From NCBI RefSeq assembly GCF_003383095.1, contig NZ_PSYW01000003.1, positions 62,001 through 126,000 on the forward strand: DNA of 64,000 nt, written 5' to 3'. The notes beneath the pieces were generated by a model, which searched no databases, was not told the origin of the DNA, and saw only the letters and a list, made by a program, of their open reading frames with translations. Of this stretch, positions 2,087-62,242 are shown one piece after another; position 1 is the stretch's first letter; each line of letters starts with the position of its first letter. The translations under genes were made by a program, and so were the position numbers. The DNA is from Haloferax sp. Atlit-12N. Lineage in GTDB: Archaea > Halobacteriota > Halobacteria > Halobacteriales > Haloferacaceae.

Positions 2087-2728
2087 GTGAGCGACCCACA
2101 CGACTCCCCGGGTGGAAAGCGCGGCCCCGAGAGCAAGGTCAACCGACTGCTCCGCGAGCGTGGTCTCGACGGGTTCGGCGCGGAGCTCGAACGGCGCTGG
2201 ACCGCCGAAGCGGACGCGCGGTCGAGCCTCCGTGACCTCGCAGACGCGTTCAACCGACGGCTCCTTCGCGCGGCGCTCGACGAGCGGAACGAACGCGTCA
2301 TCGACGGCGAGGTCGAGAATCTGTACCGCGTGCTCACCGACGACGGCGTTTCGAGCGGGTCGCGAACGGATGCGGTCCGCCGGCTCGAACGCGCCGGCGT
2401 CGACGTAGCGCGACTCGAGACCGATTTCGTCTCGCACCGGGCGATGCGGACGTATCTCACCTCGTACCGCGGCGTGACGCCGCCGTCGGAGGCCGACCGC
2501 GACGATGGTGACCTCCGCGAGCGCCGGTCGGAGACCATTCGACGCCTGCTGGGTCGCGTCGAGCGCGTCACCGACAAGTCGCTGTCCGACCTCGCGGCCG
2601 CCGACGAACTCGACTTCGCTCCCGACGCCGCCGAGGTGTACGTCGACGTTCGCGTCCACTGCCCGGGCTGTGACTCCCAATACACGGTCGAAGACCTCAT
2701 CGATAGGGGCGGTTGCGACTGCGAGTAG
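2087..2728 (+). CDS. rdfA: RdfA family protein (rod-determining factor-like)
   Basis: This 213-residue protein starts with GTG. It resembles the haloarchaeal RdfA family, whose Haloferax volcanii member is needed for rod-shaped cells. Recognisable parts are the N-terminal KVNRLLRERGL segment, the LRDLADAFNRRLLRAAL helix, and a central DGEVENLYRVLTDD stretch that leads to DFVSHRAMRTYL. The C-terminus has four cysteines (192, 195, 210, 212) that could bind a metal. The next gene is an SMC-related protein, the usual partner of this family. The 330-bp gap between them suggests separate control rather than tight coupling. Family call is from memory of characteristic motifs; the role in shape is by homology only, since haloarchaea often carry several paralogues. 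Confidence 0.75.
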   Translation: MSDPHDSPGGKRGPESKVNRLLRERGLDGFGAELERRWTAEADARSSLRDLADAFNRRLLRAALDERNERVIDGEVENLYRVLTDDGVSSGSRTDAVRRLERAGVDVARLETDFVSHRAMRTYLTSYRGVTPPSEADRDDGDLRERRSETIRRLLGRVERVTDKSLSDLAAADELDFAPDAAEVYVDVRVHCPGCDSQYTVEDLIDRGGCDCE

Positions 2729-2797
2729 TCCGTTTCGCGCTCTCCGAACCACGGTTTCGAGCGACCAGTGACGACCGGATTCTCGGGGCGAAAAATC

Positions 2798-2819
2798 GTT
2801 CCACCGATAGCTGTGGAAC
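2798..2819. promoter_or_regulatory. Palindrome GTTCCA-N10-TGGAAC, copy 1
   Basis: Perfect inverted repeat with arms GTTCCAC and GTGGAAC. The spacer shares CGATAG with the second copy at 2984. It sits in the gap before the SMC-related gene and is probably a protein-binding site. Confidence 0.6.
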
Positions 2820-2983
2820 TGATTTGTGGTTCCTGCCGACAGACGAGGAGACGGCCCGAGAGGAAAGCGACGACGGGGGAGTTCGAACACAGTTCCGGAC
2901 TCGCTGATCGTCGGCTGTTCCCGTATCGGCCCAAATCGGAGTCGATAGACGCCGAGCGTACGGTTGGAACCCGTGCAAAATGC

Positions 2984-3005
2984 GTTCCAGCGATAGTAGT
3001 GGAAC
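2984..3005. promoter_or_regulatory. Palindrome GTTCCA-N10-TGGAAC, copy 2
   Basis: Identical to copy 1 at 19 of 22 positions, including the asymmetric spacer CGATAG, and 186 bp downstream of it. It lies 53 bp before the ATG at 3059. A spacer conserved beyond the arms suggests duplication or sequence-specific recognition. Confidence 0.6.
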
Positions 3006-3058
3006 GGGTTTGGGACCCGTCACCAACTGTTTTCACGGCCCCCCGTGTGGAACACCGT

Positions 3059-5002
3059 ATGGCCACGACGAACGGACCGGCCCGCCTGACCGTAGCGCGG
3101 TTCGCCGGCCTCGACGACGCGACCGTCGAGTTCGAGCCCGGCGTCTCCGTCGTCACGGGACGCGACGCGGCTGACCGAACACCGCTCCTGTGGGGTCTCG
3201 CGGCCGCGCTGGGAAGCGATGAACTCCCGTTTAACGAGGGCTTTGACGGCGGTCGGGTCGAACTCGCCGTCGAGAGCGAGACGTACACGCGGACGTTCGT
3301 GAGGGAGGGCGACCGCGTCGTCGCGTCCGGCGACCCGTACCTCGAAGACTCGACGACCGCCGACCTGTTCGCGTTCCTGCTCGGCTCCGACGAGGCCCGG
3401 CAGGCGGTGACCGGCGAGCGCGACCTGCGGGCGCTCGTCACGCACTCGGTCGACATCGACGCCGTCAAAGAGGAAATCGCGGAGCTCCGCGCCGAGCGCG
3501 CCGAGTTAGACGACCGAATCGCGGAGCTGTCCACGCTCGAATCCGAGCGCCCCCGACTCCGCGAGCGCCGCGACGAACTGGACGCGGCCGTCGAGCGCTT
3601 GGAGGCCGAGTTAGCAGACCGGCAGGAGACGCTCGCTCGAATCGAAGCATCGGCGGTCGACGCCGACACTGACGCGCGGACGGAAACCGATGCCGACGCG
3701 TCGGACGCGGAGACGCGGGCGGACCGATTACGGGAGTTGAACGCGGCGCTCGACGACGCCCAGTTCGAACTCGAGGCCGAGCGGGAGTCGCTTGACGCGC
3801 TCGACGCCGAACTCGACGAGGTCGAATCAGCACTCGCGTCGTGTCCCGCCGACACCGCCGGCGAACTCGACGAGTTGACCGACGAACTTTCCGAGTCACG
3901 CGCGCGAAAACGACGGTTAGATGCGGACATCACCGACGTTCAGCGGACGCTACGGTTCAACGAACAGTTCCTCTCGTCGGGGACGTCGCCCGTCGCCGCG
4001 AGCGCGGGCGAGGACGGCGGAGCCAACGATGACGACCGGGTCGTCTGCTGGACGTGTGGGACCTCGGTCCCCGAAGCGAGCATCGAATCGACGCTCGACC
4101 AACTCCGGACGCTCCGCGACGACCGCCGCGAGGAGCGCGCCGAACTCACCGACCGCCTCGAACGACTCCAAGAGCGCCGGTCGGAACTCGAAGACCAACG
4201 ACGACGGCGACGCGACCTCGAAACTCGACGCGATGAGTTACGCCGCGAGCGCGCCGAACGCCGGGCGCGAGTCGAGGACCTCGAAACCCAACGCGACGCC
4301 CTCGAATCGGATATCGCCGACCTGAGACGCGATGTCGAGGCCGCGGAGCCGGACGACCGCGCCGCGGTCCTCGCCGCCCATCGAGAGGTCAACCGAGTCG
4401 AGTTCGAGTTGGAGCGGCGACGCGAGGAGCGCGATGCCGTCGTCAAGGACCTCGACTCCCTCGAAGTCCAACTCGACCGACGGGCGGACCTCGAAGCTCG
4501 GCAGGACGAAATCGACGACCGAATCGTCGAGCTTCGGAGTCGTATCGAACGGCTCGAATGCGCGGCTGTCTCGGCGTTCAACGACCGGATGGCGGACGTC
4601 CTCGACGCCCTCGAATACGACCCCCTCGCCCGCCTCTGGATCGAGAGACGGGGCGACGGAGACGCCCTCGACGACGCGGACGCGGCTCCCACGGGGCGAT
4701 TCGTCCCGCACATCGAGCGCCGGACGGACGATGGAACCGTCTACGAGGACGTTATCGACCACCTCCCGGCGTCCGAGCACGAGCTTATCGGTCTCGTGTT
4801 CGCCGTTGCCGGCTACCTCGTCCACGAAGTGTCCGACGACGTTCCGTTCTTCGTTCTCGACTCGGTCGAGGCCATCGACGCCGAGCTCGTTCGCAGGCTT
4901 CTCGCCTACGTCGGCCAGGATGCCAACTACGTCGTCGGCGGCGTGTCCAGTGAGAGCGCGCAGGGCCTCCCGGAGTCGTACCGACGACTTCGGACTCCGT
5001 GA
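3059..5002 (+). CDS. Archaea-specific SMC-related protein (Sph3-like)
   Basis: 647 residues with the layout of a small SMC/Rad50-like ATPase: N-terminal nucleotide-binding half, a long charged coiled coil (about 130-540), and a C-terminal half. In the middle of the coil is a Rad50-type zinc hook, C330-W-T-C333, almost exactly half-way. The N-terminal P-loop is degenerate: GRDAADRTPLL (34-44) lacks the Walker A lysine, a feature I recall for the RdfA-linked SMC-related family. The C-terminus has a Walker-B-like FFVLDSVEAID (Asp601). The ATG at 3059 was chosen because an extended frame upstream runs through palindromes and non-coding sequence. Likely acts with RdfA on DNA or on cell-shape control; that is homology-based inference. 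Confidence 0.8.
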   Translation: MATTNGPARLTVARFAGLDDATVEFEPGVSVVTGRDAADRTPLLWGLAAALGSDELPFNEGFDGGRVELAVESETYTRTFVREGDRVVASGDPYLEDSTTADLFAFLLGSDEARQAVTGERDLRALVTHSVDIDAVKEEIAELRAERAELDDRIAELSTLESERPRLRERRDELDAAVERLEAELADRQETLARIEASAVDADTDARTETDADASDAETRADRLRELNAALDDAQFELEAERESLDALDAELDEVESALASCPADTAGELDELTDELSESRARKRRLDADITDVQRTLRFNEQFLSSGTSPVAASAGEDGGANDDDRVVCWTCGTSVPEASIESTLDQLRTLRDDRREERAELTDRLERLQERRSELEDQRRRRRDLETRRDELRRERAERRARVEDLETQRDALESDIADLRRDVEAAEPDDRAAVLAAHREVNRVEFELERRREERDAVVKDLDSLEVQLDRRADLEARQDEIDDRIVELRSRIERLECAAVSAFNDRMADVLDALEYDPLARLWIERRGDGDALDDADAAPTGRFVPHIERRTDDGTVYEDVIDHLPASEHELIGLVFAVAGYLVHEVSDDVPFFVLDSVEAIDAELVRRLLAYVGQDANYVVGGVSSESAQGLPESYRRLRTP

Positions 5003-5282: not shown

Positions 5283-5299
5283 TTCTACTCATAGTAGAA
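5283..5299. promoter_or_regulatory. Candidate IclR operator (perfect palindrome)
   Basis: TTCTACTCATAGTAGAA: arms of 7 bases, spacer of 3. The same architecture recurs at 5525-5541 and 6385-6401 and, weaker, at 6509-6525, all flanking the IclR gene. Confidence 0.6.
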
Positions 5300-5524: not shown

Positions 5525-5541
5525 TTCCACCATCAGTAGAA
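5525..5541. promoter_or_regulatory. Candidate IclR operator overlapping its own promoter
   Basis: TTCCACCATCAGTAGAA follows the pattern TTCYACY-N3-AGTRGAW with one arm mismatch. It directly precedes, and touches, the TATA-like element of the IclR gene, so binding would be expected to repress the regulator's own transcription. Confidence 0.55.
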
Positions 5542-5570: not shown

Positions 5571-6344
5571 ATGGCACCTAACGAAAGCGAAGGCGGCGGC
5601 AAGCGCGTGAAGGCGGTCATGCGCTCGTACCGGGTAATCGGCGTTCTGCGAGAGCAAGGGACGGTGCGGATTAACGACGTCGCGGACGCGCTCGAGGTGC
5701 CGACCAGTACTGCGCACGTACATCTGAAAACCCTCGAGGCGGCGGGGTACGTCGTCAAGGACGAACACGGGTACCGACTCGGACTTCGGTTCCTCCGCGA
5801 CGGAAGCATCACCCGGGGGCGCTTGGACGTGTACGGCGCGTCGCGGTCCGAAATCAAGGACCTCGCGGAGTCGACCGGCGAGGTGGCGAATCTCGGCGTC
5901 GAGGAGAACGGACAGCGGGTCATCGTCTACCAGGCCGAGGGCGACAAGGCGGTGTACGACAACGCGCCGATCGGCGAGTTCACGCACATGCATTGGACCG
6001 CGCTCGGAAAGGCGATTCTCGCGGAGCTCCCCGGCGAGCGGGTGACCGAAATCGTCGACGAGTACGGGCTCCCGACGAAGACCGACCACACGATCAGCGA
6101 CCGGGGGGCGCTCCTCGAAGAACTCGAGACGATACGGGAGCGAGAGTACGCGCTCGAGGACGAAGAGCGACGAGACGGGATTCGGTCCATCGCGGTCCCG
6201 CTCGTCAGCGACGGGTCGGTCATCGGCGCGGTGTCGCTGTCCGGACCGAAAGAGCGGTTCAACGACGACCGAATCGTGGACGAACTGTTCCCGGCGCTCA
6301 GAGACCGGAAGAACGTCATCGAGGTCAAGTACGCGTACGACTGA
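5571..6344 (+). CDS. IclR family transcriptional regulator
   Basis: 257 residues. The N-terminal winged helix (about 20-85) includes YRVIGVLREQGTVRINDVADAL and the recognition region VPTSTAHVHLKTLEAAGYV. The C-terminal ligand-binding domain has the family stretches GEVANLGVEENGQRVIVY and MHWTALGKAILAEL. IclR proteins usually bind a sugar acid or aromatic metabolite and control neighbouring catabolic genes. The next gene encodes mannonate dehydratase, followed by a TRAP transporter, so a hexuronate or aldonate intermediate is a likely effector. The ATG at 5571 is supported by the TATA-like box 27 bases upstream; an in-frame extension further upstream runs through that promoter. Confidence 0.9.
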   Translation: MAPNESEGGGKRVKAVMRSYRVIGVLREQGTVRINDVADALEVPTSTAHVHLKTLEAAGYVVKDEHGYRLGLRFLRDGSITRGRLDVYGASRSEIKDLAESTGEVANLGVEENGQRVIVYQAEGDKAVYDNAPIGEFTHMHWTALGKAILAELPGERVTEIVDEYGLPTKTDHTISDRGALLEELETIREREYALEDEERRDGIRSIAVPLVSDGSVIGAVSLSGPKERFNDDRIVDELFPALRDRKNVIEVKYAYD

Positions 6345-6384: not shown

Positions 6385-6401
6385 TTCCACTATGAGTGGA
6401 T
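6385..6401. promoter_or_regulatory. Candidate IclR operator before uxuA
   Basis: TTCCACTATGAGTGGAT, inner arms TCCACT/AGTGGA around a 3-base spacer. Same architecture as the sites at 5283 and 5525. It lies about 155 bases before the mannonate dehydratase start. Confidence 0.55.
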
Positions 6402-6540: not shown

Positions 6541-7494
6541 ATGAATCCAGCAGTGATGCTGCCTCCCTCCCCGGACAGACGGTGGACCCTCGCCAAGCAA
6601 CTCGGCGTCGAAAGCGCCGTCGTACGGTTCTGGGGCGTCGACGACTGGTGGGAGTACGAGACGTTACTCGAAACCCGAAATCGGTTCGCAGACCACGGAT
6701 TCTCACTGGACGTCGTCGAGGACCGCCCGCCCATGGAGCGAACGGTCCTCGGTCAGGAGGGTCGAGACGAGGAGATCGAGACGGTGAAACGACTGCTTCG
6801 GAATATGGGACGCCTCGGCATCGACGTGTACTGCTGGGTGTGGACCGAAAACCCCGTCGGCGTCATCAGAACTTCCGATTCGATTCCGGACCGCGGTGAT
6901 TCGCTCGTCACCGGGTACGACCACGAGTGGCTGGAGCGCGCCGAGGACCACCCCGCGGCGGGTATCACCGAGGAGGAGCTGTGGGACAACCTCCAGTACT
7001 TCCTGGACGAAGTCGTGCCGGTCGCCGAGGAGGCGGGCGTCAAGATGGCACTGCACCCGGACGACCCGCCGGTCGAGGAGCTTCGGGGAGTTCCCCGCCT
7101 CGTCACGTCGCTCGAACGGTACGAGCGCGTCTTGGAACTTCACGAGAGTCCCAACCACGGCGTCACGTTCTGTCAAGGGAACTTCGCCGCGATGGGCGAG
7201 GACGTCCCGTCGGCGATTCGACGCCTCGGAGAGCGGATTCACTTCGTCCACTTCCGCGACGTCGAAGGGACGCCCGAGTCGTTCGTGGAGACGTGGCACG
7301 ACGACGGGCCCACCGACATGGCGGCAGCGATGGAAGCGTACCAAGACATCGGTTTCGACGGGGCGATTCGCCCCGACCACGTCCCCAAGATGCTCGGCGA
7401 GGAGGACCGAGCGGAAGCGCATGCGGGGTACACCGACATGGGCCGGCTGTTCGCAATCGGCTACATGAAGGGCCTCATCGAACGCGGACGGTAA
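6541..7494 (+). CDS. uxuA: Mannonate dehydratase
   Basis: 317 residues. The enzyme converts D-mannonate to 2-keto-3-deoxygluconate (KDG), a step of glucuronate breakdown. Family signs are a TIM-barrel-like start with VRFWGVDDWWEYE, the segment VYCWVWTENPVGVIRTSDS, the metal-site stretch MALHPDDPP, GVTFCQGNFAAMG, IHFVHFRDV and the late RPDHVPKM. The protein is shorter than the roughly 390-residue E. coli enzyme. The ATG at 6541 is preferred over a GTG at 6520 because of the TATA spacing. The KDG made here can be used by the kinase (18849-19814) and aldolase (19943-20590) encoded about 12 kb away. No glucuronate isomerase is visible in the window. Confidence 0.85.
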   Translation: MNPAVMLPPSPDRRWTLAKQLGVESAVVRFWGVDDWWEYETLLETRNRFADHGFSLDVVEDRPPMERTVLGQEGRDEEIETVKRLLRNMGRLGIDVYCWVWTENPVGVIRTSDSIPDRGDSLVTGYDHEWLERAEDHPAAGITEEELWDNLQYFLDEVVPVAEEAGVKMALHPDDPPVEELRGVPRLVTSLERYERVLELHESPNHGVTFCQGNFAAMGEDVPSAIRRLGERIHFVHFRDVEGTPESFVETWHDDGPTDMAAAMEAYQDIGFDGAIRPDHVPKMLGEEDRAEAHAGYTDMGRLFAIGYMKGLIERGR

Positions 7495-30888: not shown

Positions 30889-31353
30889 TTACCACTCGTC
30901 GTGAGTGAATTACAAAACTATGTCTGTAATGAAATATGAGAGATACGATGGGTATCGTTCGTCTCGGAGTCTTGCCGGCCTTCCGGCCGAGCAAACCGAC
31001 AAAGCCACGACGCGTCGGTAGAGTCACCACGGAGAAAGTATTGTACGAATTAAGAAATTCTAGTACGGAAGTAACTCCCTCCGTATCGCTGACGAAGCGA
31101 CCATTTGGTTGACGGCAGATTCACAGCCATCACACACGTGATGATATTTGTACTAATTTGATATATAAAATCAGAGAAACGAATACTTATTTCCACATTT
31201 CTAGTCAGAAGTTGCGTCTAGTCATCTCTGTACGACTCGCGAGATTACCTGCGGCGGTATAAACCATTCAGTTTCGAATACCCATAGGAGATAATGACGA
31301 CAGATAAAATTGAATAAAACGACCAATACCATTGGGCCGAGAGGGCTGCGAAC
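30889..31353. other. Intergenic region with no recognised feature
   Basis: 465 bases between the IclR gene and the convergent mobA gene, AT-rich from about 31040 to 31330. No reading frame, RNA gene or clear terminator was found. A short GC-rich hairpin GCCGG-CCTT-CCGGC occurs near 30975. Confidence 0.5.
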
Positions 31354-62216: not shown

Positions 62217-62242
62217 TGATTACAGGGGTACACGTGTAATCA
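62217..62242. promoter_or_regulatory. Nested palindrome TGATTACA-N10-TGTAATCA
   Basis: Perfect 8-base arms with a 10-base spacer; inside it is a second palindrome TACACGTGTA (62229-62238). It lies about 120 bases before the DUF7847 gene. Could be a regulator site or a transcript hairpin. Confidence 0.4.

Follow-up and report, generated by a model that had tools for sequence, protein, structure and literature searches.

Paired GTTCCA palindromes upstream of a Haloferax rdfA-ASRP gene pair: candidate operators within a TA-centred site family with clade-specific arms

Archaeal upstream activating sequences, such as the GvpE and Ptr2 sites, adjoin the BRE/TATA box. IclR-family operators are 15-bp palindromes near TGGAAATnATTTCCA, and in LacI/GalR-type two-operator repressor systems the same dyad is repeated within a single promoter region. 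We compared with these a pair of GTTCCA-N10-TGGAAC palindromes in Haloferax sp. Atlit-12N. Like an upstream activating sequence, the GTTCCA dyad lies directly upstream of a putative core promoter at a fixed distance, but it is a long 35-bp dyad that occurs in two copies with variable spacing and clade-specific arms. It shares with IclR-family operators the inverted repeat at a promoter, and 22-bp relatives with a TA centre are frequent at haloarchaeal IclR loci; unlike those operators, it spans 22-35 bp, has a TA centre and occurs independently of the IclR gene, and the local IclR probably has a 15-bp operator of its own. With the LacI/GalR type it shares the repetition of a dyad within one promoter region, at distances of tens to hundreds of bp, whereas the spacing of the GTTCCA copies shifts from 51 to 186 bp between close relatives. 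The same gene pair is found in Haloferax volcanii as rdfA-sph3 (HVO_2174/HVO_2175), where RdfA and its SMC-like partner decide between rod and disk shape and rod shape requires both genes (PMC10869688). However, the Haloferax paralogue group that we infer to be of this rdfA-sph3 type (group D) carries no TA-centred palindrome, and the site is thus not essential to all such pairs. The archaea-specific SMC-related protein (ASRP) family includes the Sulfolobus coalescin, a builder of chromosome compartments (PMC9389158).

The stretch of DNA analyzed (the window) comprises 64,000 nucleotides of contig NZ_PSYW01000003.1, and the features of the locus are as follows.

2087..2728, plus strand: rdfA, rod-determining factor A, 213 aa (PF21811, E=2.7e-69, 233 bits against a cut-off of 27)
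2792..2825, no strand assigned: upstream copy of the putative operator, 22-bp core GTTCCACCGATAGCTGTGGAAC at 2798-2819, A-rich left and T-rich right flank, kept in four species
2978..3011, no strand assigned: downstream copy of the putative operator, 22-bp core GTTCCAGCGATAGTAGTGGAAC at 2984-3005, A-rich left and T-rich right flank, ending 53 bp before the ASRP ATG
3019..3038, plus strand: putative ASRP promoter, block GTCACCAACTGTTTTCACGG, invariant in four species in the alignment, with a presumptive TATA-like TTTTCA at -29..-24 from the ATG, assigned by eye
3048..3053, plus strand: third half-site TGGAAC, judged to lie outside the system, not kept in three relatives
3059..5002, plus strand: ASRP, 647 aa (NF045487 equivalog, 548.5 bits against a cut-off of 300)
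5571..6344, plus strand: IclR-family regulator (PF01614, E=1.1e-32)

The RdfA assignment combines a PF21811 score above the cut-off with the adjoining SMC-like gene, and the ASRP carries a Rad50-like CxxC ('CWTCG') in the middle of its coiled coil. Upstream of rdfA lie a histidine kinase gene and, judged by eye, an ECF-type transporter gene; downstream of the IclR gene, ORFs resemble by eye a uronate-dehydratase/TRAP-transporter cluster.

Both palindromes described in the initial annotation were recovered as exact copies, 186 bp apart from start to start, with CGATAG common to the two spacers. The 4,012,076-base genome contained only these two exact copies, both between rdfA and ASRP, while base composition predicted 0.15 per genome and the reversed-pattern control gave none in the same genome. 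The chance of a second palindrome within 208 bp was ~1.6e-5 from base composition. A random genome-wide spread, which had been set in advance as the outcome that would speak against a functional site, was ruled out by the placement of both genomic copies at one locus. The supposed third half-site at the start codon did not hold up: TGGAAC ends 5 bp before the ATG at 3059, reads TCGAAC at the same position in H. gibbonsii and H. prahovense, and is lost in genome G278.

We then compared 15 Haloferax genomes and found an orthologous ASRP in four of them: the window's own genome (G000), G239 (H. gibbonsii ATCC 33959) and G298 (H. prahovense DSM 18310), both at 88% identity, and G278 at 71%. All four species with the orthologous rdfA-ASRP pair had exactly two GTTCCA-N10-TGGAAC palindromes between the two genes, and the preset expectation that the motif recurs upstream of orthologous pairs was borne out in 4/4. 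The exact palindrome was absent (0 copies) from the exactly searched Haloferax genomes without the orthologous pair, and a search of all 15 genomes allowing up to three mismatches gave no GTTCCA site outside the four among its best matches. In all four species the downstream palindrome ends 52-53 bp before the ASRP ATG, beside the invariant promoter-like block. The alignment showed the palindromes and this promoter-proximal block as conserved islands, with the remaining spacer largely diverged or deleted; the ~130 bp between the copies are mostly deleted in two species and otherwise diverged. The earlier suggestion that similarity extends beyond the arms proved right, since nearly all eight copies from the four species share AAA at -6..-4 and C at -1, each with its mirror image. 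The conserved unit is a ~35-bp dyad, AAA-nnC-GTTCCA-nnG-m-TA-k-Cnn-TGGAAC-G-nn-TTT, with G at +8 and a TA centre across the eight copies. The asymmetric CGATAG core was discarded as part of the site, as it varies in relatives (GATATC, GATAGC, GCTATC); judged from these alignments, the conserved core consists of the central TA plus G/C three bases out, that is, a symmetric site. Exact GTTCCA-N10-TGGAAC matches also occur outside Haloferax, in many genomes of the order. Among the matches listed, their spacers are unlike those of the window, highly repeated between genomes and mostly of the CCGCCGGTG type, as expected of conserved coding sequence, which we infer them to be; we therefore judged them irrelevant.

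Haloferax carries further rdfA-ASRP paralogue groups, and two of these, B (tandem) and C (divergent), have ATTACA-N4-TA-N4-TGTAAT or a degenerate form of it at the promoter. The 22-bp TA-centred architecture recurs before ASRP in other genera, with the arms RTTACA, RTAACA, ATAACG and ATGACR. Among 61 Haloferacaceae ASRP loci, which include close relatives and are not 61 independent cases, 40 had a 22-bp palindrome with a TA centre in the 400 bp preceding the ASRP start, against a prediction of 0.66 from control sequence taken at these loci. Independent shuffles gave a similar picture, with perfect 6/6 arms and a TA centre in 11/80 loci against 0.35; other centre dinucleotides had no comparable excess (AT, CG and GC, at most 3). 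At loci with readable promoters, the site lies by eye ~20-40 bp upstream of the TATA box. A smaller number of loci (8/61, against 0.47 expected) had a TA-centred site within 330 bp after the ASRP stop. At loci from several genera (L325 4831, L328 5256, L259 5853, L304 1875, L301 1887 and L336 6381) the palindrome lies no more than ~100 bp past the stop codon, sometimes between convergent genes, and the ASRP gene can thus be flanked on both sides.

To relate arms to proteins, we built maximum-likelihood trees of 60 RdfA and 60 ASRP proteins and assigned arm classes manually, those of L258 and L266 being taken from weaker 4/6 sites. The arm type changed 8 times on the RdfA tree and 9 times on the ASRP tree, compared with a mean of ~32 for shuffled labels, and the GTTCC and RTGAC classes were each of single origin. 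Genome G353 holds one RTAAC paralogue and one RTGAC paralogue, the latter grouping with RTGAC pairs of another genus; because these paralogues differ in their arms, the arm code is a property of the locus and not simply of the host. The covariation points to a regulator in each clade whose specificity matches the arms, with the physical linkage of site and gene as a confounder: operators linked to genes on the DNA will partly reproduce the gene tree no matter which protein binds them, so that the match between arms and clades is no proof of binding by the gene product.

A sister motif, RTTACA-N4-TA-N4-TGTAAY, was found at ~20 sites in this genome, against 0 for the reversed pattern; most lie on the window's contig. 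Two members lie within the window.

30909-30930: RTTACA-N4-TA-N4-TGTAAY
62219-62240: RTTACA-N4-TA-N4-TGTAAY

Nearly all sites are intergenic, mostly upstream of sugar-catabolism and IclR-linked genes according to heuristic gene calls. A mainly convergent-gene or architectural role for them was rejected, as 3/18 in this genome look convergent and the others are upstream of a gene or ambiguous. Thirty haloarchaeal IclR loci contained 20 TA-centred 22-bp palindromes against 1.05 expected. In the 21 family genomes sampled in which no ASRP match was strong (E>1e-100), ATTACA-type sites were absent (within-genus permutation p=0.004), and six of these 21, scanned with a generalised pattern, had 0-1 sites versus 3-15 in ASRP carriers. 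The absence of sites from ASRP-less genomes links the sites to the presence of RdfA/ASRP, with co-loss alongside sugar catabolism as the alternative. The motif looks like an undescribed haloarchaeal carbon regulon; a targeted literature search found no description of it in open-access papers.

The IclR-family regulator encoded next to the pair was considered as a binder of the GTTCCA palindromes. IclR genes flank rdfA-ASRP in many genera, and three of the four species with the palindromes have the window-type IclR directly downstream of ASRP. The sites nevertheless do not follow this gene. An IclR orthologue (96-99% identity) is present in G000, G239, G298 and G297, while in G278 the best match reaches 42% and yet there are two GTTCCA sites; conversely, G297 has a 96%-identical IclR and no GTTCCA site at the locus. 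In genome G297, rdfA is gone and only the last codons of ASRP are left; its 92%-identical match to the window starts at 4868. A remnant of 37 residues (L320 8671-8781, G297:C4) lies beside the intact IclR gene; the loss of the pair coincides with the absence of the palindromes, and IclR-TRAP remains. The IclR gene is also surrounded by a separate set of sites.

5284-5298 (the first, TCTACTCATAGTAGA), 5526-5540 and 6386-6400, no strand assigned: 15-bp sites TCYACTMATRGTRGA around the IclR gene (five strand-matches against 0.45 expected)

All three sites are kept in the four genomes with the IclR, G297 included, and are absent at the G278 locus. These sites are most likely the regulator's own operators, judged from this distribution, and probably serve the downstream uronate/TRAP-like cluster. 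We therefore rejected the adjacent IclR as the binder, on one genome with IclR and no site (G297), one with sites and no such IclR (G278) and the conserved operators of its own, and consider that reading very improbable. We regard it as similarly far-fetched that the palindromes act as RNA, as hairpins in a read-through rdfA-ASRP transcript that would serve, for example, as a processing or attenuation signal. Stems of 6-7 bp with loops of 8-10 nt could form, and the arms change symmetrically between clades, but double-stranded DNA explains the symmetric changes equally well, the AAA/TTT flanks and the TA centre are superfluous for a hairpin loop, and at other loci the sites stand ahead of TATA boxes or in the gap separating divergently oriented rdfA and ASRP, positions that need not be part of a transcript. 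A role in chromosome architecture, in which the sites recruit or load the SMC-like ASRP rather than act in transcription, draws on the kinship of ASRP with the compartment-building coalescin (PMC9389158) and on the sites just 3' of ASRP stop codons, some of them between convergent genes. Most sites, however, keep a fixed place ahead of a TATA box or start codon, and the GTTCCA sites are confined to their own locus and not spread over the genome; we hold such a role to be improbable.

A regulator encoded elsewhere has to be weighed more seriously. It would be a paralogue of the protein that binds RTTACA-N4-TA-N4-TGTAAY at sugar-catabolism genes, and rdfA-ASRP would be one target in a nutrient-responsive network of several regulators with diverging specificity. 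The RTTACA sites before many sugar genes in Haloferax fit a global regulator equally well, and the excess of TA-centred palindromes at haloarchaeal IclR loci speaks for this reading. RTTACA arms are also found at the Haloferax rdfA-ASRP groups B and C, and the IclR-ASRP-rdfA block of Haloarcula litorea sits in an L-rhamnose catabolism cluster. Against this, genomes without ASRP are without the sites, and the locus has its own specificity: GTTCCA arms occur only here, and in the g11 genomes the ATGACR arms occur almost only at rdfA-ASRP loci, with RTTACA sites elsewhere. We consider an outside regulator possible, at somewhat less than an even chance. In the genomes compared, the sites keep company with the gene pair: 4/4 species with the pair have two sites, and none is present at the G297 locus, from which the pair has been lost. 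This co-occurrence speaks for RdfA or ASRP itself as the binder, which we put a little short of even, about level with an outside regulator. When RdfA was searched for a DNA-binding or regulator fold, neither sequence searches (Pfam, PDB) nor structure comparisons (Foldseek, VIA-align) gave anything usable (0 Foldseek matches of the model to solved structures at E<=0.001; best VIA-align Z 4.7). The confident AlphaFold model of RdfA (mean pLDDT 89) has a helical N-terminal part and a long helix at 140-171, and the C-terminal region contains conserved CxxC and CxC cysteines.

The initial annotation had proposed a cooperative operator or a DNA site for the encoded proteins themselves. The class of answer appears right, and the sites do accompany rdfA-ASRP rather than the neighbouring IclR, but RdfA, as one such protein, is without a recognisable DNA-binding fold. 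The dyads exceed chance (2 against 0.15 expected) and their position is kept in 4/4 orthologues; the palindromes are very probably protein-binding operators. That they act as an upstream operator pair, serving a dimeric regulator of rdfA-ASRP specific to the clade, is about an even call, and we lean modestly towards a regulator that is encoded by the locus or strictly co-inherited with it. Cooperativity would be a further possibility. The two copies are spaced at 186 bp (window), 178 bp (G278) and 51 bp (G239 and G298), and the downstream copy alone keeps its distance to the gene; these three spacing values come near whole helical turns (17.9, 17.1 and 4.9) only if a turn is taken as about 10.4 bp, and three are too few to establish phasing. 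As a working model of the paired operator, a symmetric dimer would bind the palindromes sequence-specifically and control the transcription of ASRP, and perhaps of rdfA too. The downstream copy, just upstream of the promoter-like block, would occupy the position of an archaeal upstream activating sequence, and the second copy, 51-186 bp further upstream, could raise occupancy or form a DNA loop. Position gives activation a slight preference over repression, as neither site overlaps the promoter-like block. The regulator would be co-inherited with the pair, and its most economical candidate would be RdfA, possibly together with ASRP, resulting in autoregulation. A broader version is rather unlikely: RdfA, alone or with its SMC-like partner, would bind DNA sequence-specifically at a TA-centred palindrome of its own. 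Each paralogous pair would then have a separate arm code and autoregulate, and in some genomes it would also act at roughly a dozen or more promoters of sugar catabolism, tying carbon use to SMC-like chromosome organisation and to cell shape in haloarchaea.

Operators are of a known kind; the new part would be a site family with clade-specific arms tied to rdfA-ASRP. We found no description of such a family in the open-access papers searched, a set that leaves most subscription journals outside. The clade-specific sites offer short DNA probes with which to name the regulator and to test DNA binding by RdfA, and a sequence-defined DNA site tied to an ASRP would give a handle on how ASRP/coalescin proteins are regulated or recruited.

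Some further arrangements were observed at related loci. In Haloarcula, loci L331 and L332 have paired 19-21-bp palindromes (CTTTCAATGAGATTGAAAG, GTTTCCAATATGATTGGAAAC) upstream of the IclR gene that look like classical IclR operators. We had considered that the RTTACA site travels with the orthologous IclR into Haloarcula, and rejected this on finding RTAAC-type 5/6 sites elsewhere at these loci and separate IclR-like palindromes such as GTTTCCAATATGATTGGAAAC; for the same reason, that IclR does not determine the arm code. On a plasmid of Haloarcula litorea (L337, L338), the IclR-ASRP-rdfA block inside the L-rhamnose cluster occurs twice. At L313, three tandem TA-centred palindromes with ATAACA/ATTACA/ATAACA arms and near-identical spacers are located at 6598, 6632 and 6666, 34 bp apart and ~1.7 kb after the ASRP gene.
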